A DNA stretch of 64,000 nucleotides. Source: Streptomyces jeddahensis (GTDB lineage: Bacteria > Actinomycetota > Actinomycetes > Streptomycetales > Streptomycetaceae). The stretch covers positions 124,001-188,000 of the forward strand of contig NZ_LOHS01000084.1 of NCBI RefSeq assembly GCF_001642995.1, in the 5' to 3' direction. The notes beneath the pieces were generated by a model. The model searched no databases. It was not told the DNA's origin and saw only the letters and a program-made list of their open reading frames with translations. A program made the position numbers and the translations under genes. Shown in pieces: positions 21,164 through 22,434 of this stretch. Within the stretch, counting starts at the first letter, position 1. Each line of letters starts with the position of its first letter.

Positions 21164-21360
21164 GAGGTTCATCGATCACCGTCGCGGGAGCGGCGGTGAA
21201 GACGTGCGGAAGACGGGTGCCCGGCGCCGTCCCGGTGCCTGGCGGCATCGTCGTGCTCCTGCCATGAGCCGTGCACCAGTGAATCGCGCCTTCCGTGTGC
21301 CTGACGACCACCCTGCCGTCGCCGCGTTGCGAGAAGGGAGACGTACGTCACATTCGTAGG

Positions 21361-21388
21361 TGTCACATCTTTCCCGAGCTGATCCGTC
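21361..21388 (+). promoter_or_regulatory. ECF41-type sigma promoter of the AhpD-like gene
   Basis: TGTCACA (21361-21367) and CGTC (21385-21388) are separated by 17 bases. TGTCACA/CGTC is the ECF41 promoter signature as I recall, and its usual target is a carboxymuconolactone-decarboxylase-like gene, as here. A second GTCACAT lies 15 bases upstream (21347-21353). Confidence 0.55.
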
Positions 21389-21429
21389 AAGGATGTGTAT
21401 CCACCAACAACGGCGCATGGGAGTTCACG

Positions 21430-21903
21430 ATGGACGCTCGTTTGAACCTCTTCGGCAACCCGGTCGGAGGCAAGGTCCTGAGGTACATCAACTCGGCAGG
21501 GAAGGAGGTCTCGGGCTCGACGCTGCCGGCCGCGACGCAGGAACTGGTGAAGATCCGCGCCAGCCAGATCAACGGCTGCGGATTCTGCACCGACATGCAC
21601 ACCAAGGACGCCGCGCACGCGGGAGAGACCTCGACGCGCCTCAACCTGATCGCGGCCTGGCGCGAGGCCACGGTGTTCACCGATGCCGAGCGCGCTGCCC
21701 TGGAGCTGACGGAGCAGGGGACCCGCATCGCCGACGCAGCCGGTGGTGTCACCGACGAGGCCTGGGCGAATGCCGCCAAGCACTACGACGAGGACCAGCT
21801 CACCGCCCTGGTGTCCCTCATCGCCCTGATCAACGCCTACAACCGGCTGAACGTCATCGTCCAGCAGCCCGCAGGCGACTATCAGCCCGGTCAGTTCGGA
21901 TAA
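21430..21903 (+). CDS. Carboxymuconolactone decarboxylase / AhpD-family alkylhydroperoxidase
   Basis: 157 residues from ATG 21430 (GGAG seven bases upstream). The AhpD catalytic motif is present: E-LVKIRASQINGCGFCTDMH, with the redox CxxC and following His. It is likely a disulfide-dependent peroxidase or stress protein. In Streptomyces such genes are often controlled by an ECF41 sigma factor; none is encoded nearby, though the promoter matches. A 12-bp terminator follows. Confidence 0.9.
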   Translation: MDARLNLFGNPVGGKVLRYINSAGKEVSGSTLPAATQELVKIRASQINGCGFCTDMHTKDAAHAGETSTRLNLIAAWREATVFTDAERAALELTEQGTRIADAAGGVTDEAWANAAKHYDEDQLTALVSLIALINAYNRLNVIVQQPAGDYQPGQFG

Positions 21904-21952
21904 CGAGGAGCACCTGGCCGGGACCGCCGGTGCCGCCTCGCACCAGCAGCAC

Positions 21953-21987
21953 ACGCCCCGGGCCTCTCTCGCGGGGGCCCGGGGCGT
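21953..21987 (+). terminator. Strong hairpin after the AhpD-like gene
   Basis: ACGCCCCGGGCC (21953-21964) and GGCCCGGGGCGT (21976-21987) form a perfect 12-bp stem with an 11-nt loop, followed by TGTTCT. Confidence 0.8.
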
Positions 21988-22203
21988 TGTTCTGGTACGC
22001 CCGGCGGGCCGGCTGAGTGGCAGAGGTGCCGACCTCCAGTCGTGCTCTGTGACGCGCCTGTGACAGTCGGCGGACACCGTCGTGAAGTCGGGCGGGCAGG
22101 ATTTTTGAAACGGGACAAACAGCCACATTCAGGCATATGTCTCCCGCTTCCGAGGGTGTGAGCAGGGATGACCGAGCCGATCCGATCTGTCGCAGGAGAT
22201 CCC

Positions 22204-22434
22204 ATGAGCCTCGCCCTCGCCACGCCGCACGCCGAAGCCGCCGCGCCTGCGCTGGCTCCGCGTGAGCAGGAGACGCTGCGGCACATCGCCGCAGGTCGCA
22301 CCTACCTGCAAGCGGCCCGTCATATGGGGCTCTCCAAGCACACGGTCGACGCCTATCTCCGCCGTATCCGGGCCAAGCTCAACATCAACAGCACGGCGGA
22401 GCTCACCCGGCTGGCCATCTCTCTGGGGCTGTGA
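22204..22434 (+). CDS. Single-domain LuxR-type helix-turn-helix protein
   Basis: 76 residues from ATG 22204 (AGGAG five bases upstream, better than ATG 22168). Nearly the whole protein is a GerE/LuxR DNA-binding domain: LAPREQETLRHIAAGRTYLQ, LSKHTVDAYLRRIRAKL and TAELTRLAISLGL. There is no receiver or sensor domain. Such miniproteins occur beside secondary-metabolite or siderophore genes in Streptomyces, but none is evident here. Likely a DNA-binding regulator that depends on a partner or on its own level. Confidence 0.8.
   Translation: MSLALATPHAEAAAPALAPREQETLRHIAAGRTYLQAARHMGLSKHTVDAYLRRIRAKLNINSTAELTRLAISLGL

Follow-up and report, generated by a model that had tools for sequence, protein, structure and literature searches.

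Can a gene that carries the promoter type of ECF41 sigma factors be switched on by a sigma factor encoded far away in the genome? The question is raised by an AhpD-like gene in the window, as we call the whole stretch of 64,000 nucleotides analysed here (G000:C84:124001-188000, from a genome of 8.45 Mb in 206 contigs). Few sigma groups are as common in actinobacteria as ECF41, and we know of no inducing signal established for it. The features that bear on the question are these:

21337..21352, + strand: upstream element GGAGACGTACGTCACA, 8 nt before the -35 element, a candidate regulator site
21361..21367, + strand: -35 element TGTCACA, from the motif scan and conservation in relatives
21368..21384, + strand: spacer of 17 nt (16 in most relatives), from spacer counts
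21385..21388, + strand: -10 element CGTC, from the motif scan and conservation
21395..21402, + strand: conserved GTGTATCC, family consensus GTGTAACC, at +7 to +14 after CGTC, from column counts
21430..21903, + strand: AhpD-like gene of the carboxymuconolactone-decarboxylase (CMD) family, 157 aa, with CxxC within NGCGFC
21942..21996, + strand: strong terminator-like hairpin 3' of the gene (-44.8 kcal/mol, z -6.2)

The promoter, its gene and their surroundings

The protein passes both the Pfam CMD model PF02627 (77.6 bits, cut-off 23) and the NCBIfam model of the AhpD core domain, TIGR00778 (71.1 bits, cut-off 27.8). We call it AhpD-like only, because it scores 20.3 bits against the full-length AhpD model TIGR00777, for which the cut-off is 191.95. 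Solved structures related to it include 2gmy (E 3e-22), and a role in peroxide or thiol stress may be supposed for the enzyme. Since the strong hairpin follows the gene, its message is probably monocistronic, a single-gene transcript; the simple terminator scan is weak and near chance (1 found vs 0.4 expected). A search for a sigma-70 promoter near the gene found none. Downstream, at 22168-22434, lies a small 88-aa LuxR-type (GerE) helix-turn-helix protein.

The original prediction placed TGTCACA-17-CGTC in front of a CMD-like gene, and this arrangement is confirmed at 21361-21388 on the + strand, with 41 nt from CGTC to the ATG and with the core kept in relatives. It has the published ECF41 form, namely TGTCACA and CGTC with a spacer of 16 +/- 1 (PMC3426412), and it lies before a CMD gene, one of the target classes of such promoters beside oxidoreductase and epimerase genes; in other species, experiments have shown that ECF41 sigmas use this -35/-10 motif and have CMD genes as targets (PMC3426412, PMC6180224). 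Although it is the sole TGTCACA/CGTC match with a spacer of 16-18 in the 64-kb window, the core motif by itself is weak evidence. Shuffled windows hold a mean of 0.22 core matches each, and 21 of 100 have one or more; the whole genome, at spacers of 15-18, has 10 core sites vs 5 for the reversed pattern, about a twofold excess. Among 299 stretches upstream of long ORFs at loci of this genome, 6 carry at least 10 of the 11 bases and 3 carry all 11, a background that is an overestimate because ten of those loci were fetched for the motif. We judge the promoter to be real because of its place before the CMD gene and its conservation. No site upstream of the three further CMD genes that we scanned in this genome matches at more than 7 of 11 bases.

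Relatives of the AhpD-like gene, found by protein search in GTDB genomes, are mostly from Streptomyces. Our first set comprises the best 80 of 570 confirmed relatives, with flanks of up to 4 kb on each side, and a core was counted if it had at least 10 of 11 bases and lay 20-130 nt before the start codon. Such a core is found in 73 of the 80 (74/81 with the window) and missing in 7; the spacer is 16 nt in 66/74 and 17 nt in 8/74, the window included. The core is also present at 15 of 17 loci outside Streptomyces, and the leader from CGTC to ATG has a median of 39 nt in relatives. The second set takes one best CMD gene from each of 82 same-genus genomes; these were drawn from the 110 non-own genomes (of 120) that had a match, the other 28, mostly weaker matches, being left out. 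The sets are not independent of each other, and some species may be in both. In the second set the core reaches at least 10/11 in 75/82 (11/11 in 49) and is missing in 7, with a spacer of 16 in 63 and of 17 in 12 of the 75 promoters.

The second half of the original prediction concerned the sigma gene, which it held to be not adjacent, and this too is borne out. The only PF04542 match on contig C84 is at C84:189149, or about window position 65149, which is outside the window and not among the ECF41-like matches; the nearest ECF41-type genes of this genome all lie on other contigs. The same is seen widely in relatives. The fetched flanks of 75/80 first-set loci (best 80 of 570) hold no ECF41-like gene, and those of the remaining five (L086, L089, L102, L112, L114) encode an ECF41-like protein. 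An ECF41-like gene lies within the locus in 11/82 of the second set, and none lies within the fetched 1.5-2.5 kb in 71/82, flanks being shorter at contig ends and also in some of a group of 13 loci. Among the 71 loci, 65 have the core and 59 have both the core and the upstream element. With this pattern the predicted control in trans is well supported: the sigma factor that switches on the AhpD-like gene is probably encoded at another place in the genome. Our preferred reading goes one step further, and we consider it fairly likely: the gene would be a detached ECF41-type target whose promoter is modulated by a protein bound upstream.

The upstream element and the start region

The start of the feature as originally predicted, 21347, cuts through the 16-bp element at 21337-21352, which had been missed. 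When promoters are aligned on the -35 element, its consensus is TG[AT]GACGCA[CG]GTCACA. With a model trained on the first set (best 80 of 570) and a threshold of above 6 bits, the element is found in 72 of 79 first-set promoters, in 0/79 control stretches further upstream and in 0.7% of shuffled ones. Its distance to the -35 element in that set is 8-11 nt in 58 promoters, 19-20 in 13 and 13 in 1, which gives two clusters about one helical turn apart. The second set has the element in 70/82 and lacks it in 12/82; of its 67 promoters that have both the core and the element, 51 carry the latter 8-10 nt before the -35 element, 11 at 19-20 nt and 5 at another value (12, 13, 13, 14, 23). In its exact core form, GWGACGYASGTCACA, the element is present a single time in this genome; with one mismatch allowed there are 8 sites vs 4 for the reversed form.

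Element and promoter also recur together. The composite pattern GTCACA-N7-11-TGTCACA-N16-17-CGTC has a single occurrence in this genome, and a search of 199 genomes gave 78 sites, spread over 62 of them, vs one site for the reversed control. All 30 of the sites that were fetched (of 78) lie 38-51 nt before a CMD gene; an ECF41 gene stands by the CMD gene in 12 of these 30 and is absent in 18, and CMD genes thus have the same promoter whether or not an ECF41 gene lies beside them. Some ECF41-adjacent promoters also have a similar element: L240 scores 24.1 bits at 10 nt, L241 and L242 score 11.3 and 14.8 bits at 9 nt, and L212 and L213 score 12.6 and 12.2 bits at 3 nt. The promoter of the ECF41-type gene C89 of this genome has an element score of 5.0, and both L199 sites score below zero. 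By eye, L212, L213 and L245, which are C89-type and ECF41-adjacent, show an AGTGA-N6-TCACA-like site 3 nt before the -35 element.

What might bind the element? A second, tandem ECF41 promoter was considered and dropped, as inspection found no CGTC at the right distance, and Rex was set aside because the inner bases of the element differ from those of the Rex site. The best present guess, from the sequence, is a regulator of the Crp/Fnr family, and this genome has a Crp-like gene (C111:37431, 66 bits). The consensus for Streptomyces Crp is given as GTG(N)6GNCAC (PMC10033298), and the element resembles such sites in being a 16-bp, dyad-like sequence with a GNCAC right half. However, the window reads GAG(N)6GTCAC, one base off that consensus (PMC10033298); across the first set (best 80 of 570) the third base is A in 46/72 and T, as in the GTG of Crp, in 25/72. 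In addition, the six inner bases are conserved in the element, whereas they are free in the Crp consensus (PMC10033298). The same source relates that in the hands of several groups purified Streptomyces Crp failed to bind or shift its sites (PMC10033298). Because the inner bases are conserved beyond what Crp demands, and because purified Crp shifted no targets, we keep Crp as a lead only.

Downstream of the -10 element, in the first set (best 80 of 570) with the window, G stands at +7 after CGTC in 69/74 promoters and at +9 in 71/74, two positions that fall within the 6-10 bases named in the original prediction, and the GTG of this block is also found in most C117-type and operon-type promoters. 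The GTGTAACC block would be the start region, and transcription is predicted to begin at 21395 or 21397, both of them G. We observe that the block is as conserved as the promoter itself; it may be more than a start site.

Sigma factors that may read the promoter

Are there ECF41 sigma factors in the genome to act in trans? Their presence was the check that the original prediction had named, and they were found. Among 46 matches to sigma region 2, four genes stand out against ECF41 queries: C26, C43 and C89, which are full-length, and C117, which is truncated. The first three have PF04542 and PF08281 (sigma regions 2 and 4) over cut-off, the WLPEP linker, an NPDKL-like C-terminal motif in the alignment (NPEKL in C89) and a C-terminal extension of about 100 aa, and all three exceed the cut-off of NCBIfam SigJ; Pfam SnoaL_2 is below cut-off in C26 and C89 and does not appear among the matches listed for C43. 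C117 has 217 aa, 205 native and 12 foreign, and most of its C-terminal extension is gone; it scores 220.5 bits against SigJ, for which the cut-off is 271, and has LPDP instead of WLPEP, as do its full-length relatives. In a tree the four fall into separate clades, and the operon-type sigmas form another clade that has no member from this genome.

The C117 locus has a history of its own. The sigma gene has a CMD remnant as its neighbour (52% over residues 27-101 of the query), and the promoter between them, TGTCACATC...CGAGCTGATCCGTC, is nearly identical to that of the window. The region (L008 1143-2182, G000:C117, ~64.8-65.8 kb) looks like a decaying ECF41-CMD pair: the 5' part of the remnant is gone, the promoter runs straight into coding sequence, and the ECF41 gene is cut before the DGG motif and followed, by eye, by recombinase-like sequence. 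A fifth sigma that carries SnoaL, C81 (G000:C81:136681-137586, L247), is distant from ECF41 and has a relative in 15/15 genomes examined, and one C26-type ECF41 gene, at G029:C17:114694-115575, contains an in-frame TGA.

With presence thresholds of our own choice (1e-55 and 1e-105), we asked whether the promoter follows any one sigma type across genomes. The CMD core is kept in 17/18 genomes with the C26-type only, 18/20 with the C117-type only, 37/40 with both and 3/4 with neither, and the quality of the promoter has no association with the presence of the C117-type or the C26-type (Fisher p 0.20 and 0.14). No single sigma can be tied to the promoter, because the core is kept whichever of the two is present. 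C117 as sole driver was dropped, as 20 of the 22 genomes without the C117-type keep the core, and so was the C26-type, as 21 of 24 without it do. An impression from the first loci, that the 17-nt spacer is commoner without a C117-type sigma, was likewise abandoned (on 75 promoters, 7/55 vs 5/20, p 0.28). The upstream element is missing more often where there is no C117-type sigma (5/20 vs 3/55, p 0.028, a post hoc and uncorrected comparison in same-genus genomes).

These counts bear directly on the alternatives to our preferred reading. One is a split pair, in which the detached CMD gene would have the C26-type sigma as its dedicated driver. This type occurs in 85/121 genomes (E below 1e-105), and none of 30 of its loci carries a core of at least 10/11 in the fetched flanks, so no local target is visible for these sigmas. 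Two genomes, G008 and G082, have no strong ECF41 match besides the C26-type and carry a perfect CMD core. Yet 18 of the 20 genomes that have the C117-type without the C26-type keep the core, and G089 and G100 have a C26-type sigma with no CMD at E 1e-30; we regard such a pairing as rather unlikely. Lower still is our estimate for C117 as the sigma that drives the window gene, possibly in a state that is constitutively on. As the CMD partner of C117 has decayed, no intact target would be left to this sigma other than the window gene. The near identity of the two promoters speaks for this idea, as does the closer resemblance of 51/67 detached promoters to C117-type than to operon-type promoters; the corresponding 35-bit preference of the window, taken as the highest value among 17 one-base deletions, is optimistic. 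Furthermore, two other ECF41 sigmas gained ~20- and 120-fold in activity when truncated at the C-terminus (PMC3426412). However, the cut in C117 is at about residue 199, counted as in the full-length sigmas of this genome, and with a numbering that is comparable only roughly it lies between those of two B. licheniformis variants, 192 (reduced) and 204 (hyperactive), described there (PMC3426412), and the 12 foreign residues after it mean that the sigma may be dead. That the promoter stays in 20/22 genomes without the C117-type, and that 0/20 sites at C117-type loci have the upstream element, make this an unlikely explanation.

There are two further alternatives. The conserved block could be read by a different sigma, or be mainly the site of another regulator, with the likeness to ECF41 promoters secondary. 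Presence of the promoter follows no ECF41 subtype, and the SnoaL-carrying C81 has its relative in every one of the 15 genomes; but the same core precedes CMD genes that are joined to ECF41 genes, and the one ECF56 sigma studied in the cited work reads CCG / CCCTCC (PMC7730460), C81 being only possibly an ECF56 member. We hold this to be improbable. Even less credit is due to the idea that the promoter is a relic, out of use in this genome. Its spacer is 17 instead of the common 16 and the C117 partner is truncated, but its core matches at 11/11, a spacer of 17 is within the published 16 +/- 1 (PMC3426412) and occurs in 12/75 same-genus promoters, and three full-length ECF41 genes remain.

Proposed mechanism and relation to known systems

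If the AhpD-like gene is a detached ECF41-type target, its expression could be pictured as follows. An ECF41 sigma made from a distant chromosomal gene would join RNA polymerase and read TGTCACA/CGTC, and several ECF41 sigmas perhaps overlap on this one promoter. Transcription would begin 7 or 9 bases after CGTC, at a G in either case. The resulting message would be short, would carry this gene alone and would encode an AhpD-like thiol/peroxide enzyme. The timing of expression would be set by a protein on the 16-bp element, one or two helical turns upstream. One argument against this reading is that the neighbouring gene is the sole ECF41 target in the published work cited (PMC3426412, PMC6180224). 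Such adjacency is typical but not absolute, because about 30% of ECF41 sigmas are themselves orphans (PMC3426412). In addition, an Azospirillum ECF41 sigma controls lateral flagella, to judge from a title cited in PMC8999054, and ECF41 action beyond the neighbour therefore has precedent.

It is also worth considering how far this arrangement may extend. Tentatively, and with less confidence than for the window gene, we suggest that there is a family of detached ECF41 targets across actinobacteria, whose promoters would need both an ECF41 sigma in trans and an upstream activator from the Crp/Fnr family or another. If this is true, ECF41 circuits would be small regulons joined to a global signal and not closed units of one sigma and one neighbour, and the "orphan" ECF41 sigmas would gain their missing targets. 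A conserved target without an adjoining sigma offers a clean reporter and could be the target of ECF41 sigmas that lack one in their neighbourhood, and the second element is a possible route to the inducing signal. Our literature search found no description of detached ECF41 targets or of an ECF41-Crp composite promoter; an earlier notice may exist.

It is informative to set the locus beside the ECF41-CMD pairs already described, ydfG of B. licheniformis and RSP_0606 of R. sphaeroides (PMC3426412) and rpoE9-SMb20029 of S. meliloti (PMC6180224). The window shares with them a promoter of the TGTCACA/CGTC type, a spacer of 16 +/- 1 and a CxxC-containing CMD gene directly downstream. It differs in that, in the cited accounts of those pairs, the sigma adjoins its sole target (PMC3426412, PMC6180224), whereas the window has no ECF41 gene near, a 41-nt leader and the upstream element. 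Also close are the actinobacterial COE-ECF41 operons seen at 12/30 of the fetched composite sites, which have CMD proteins of 62-72% identity and the same distances of element and core; in contrast to the window, they keep the ECF41 gene beside the CMD gene, and their core is mostly TGTCACAGGG...CTCGTC.
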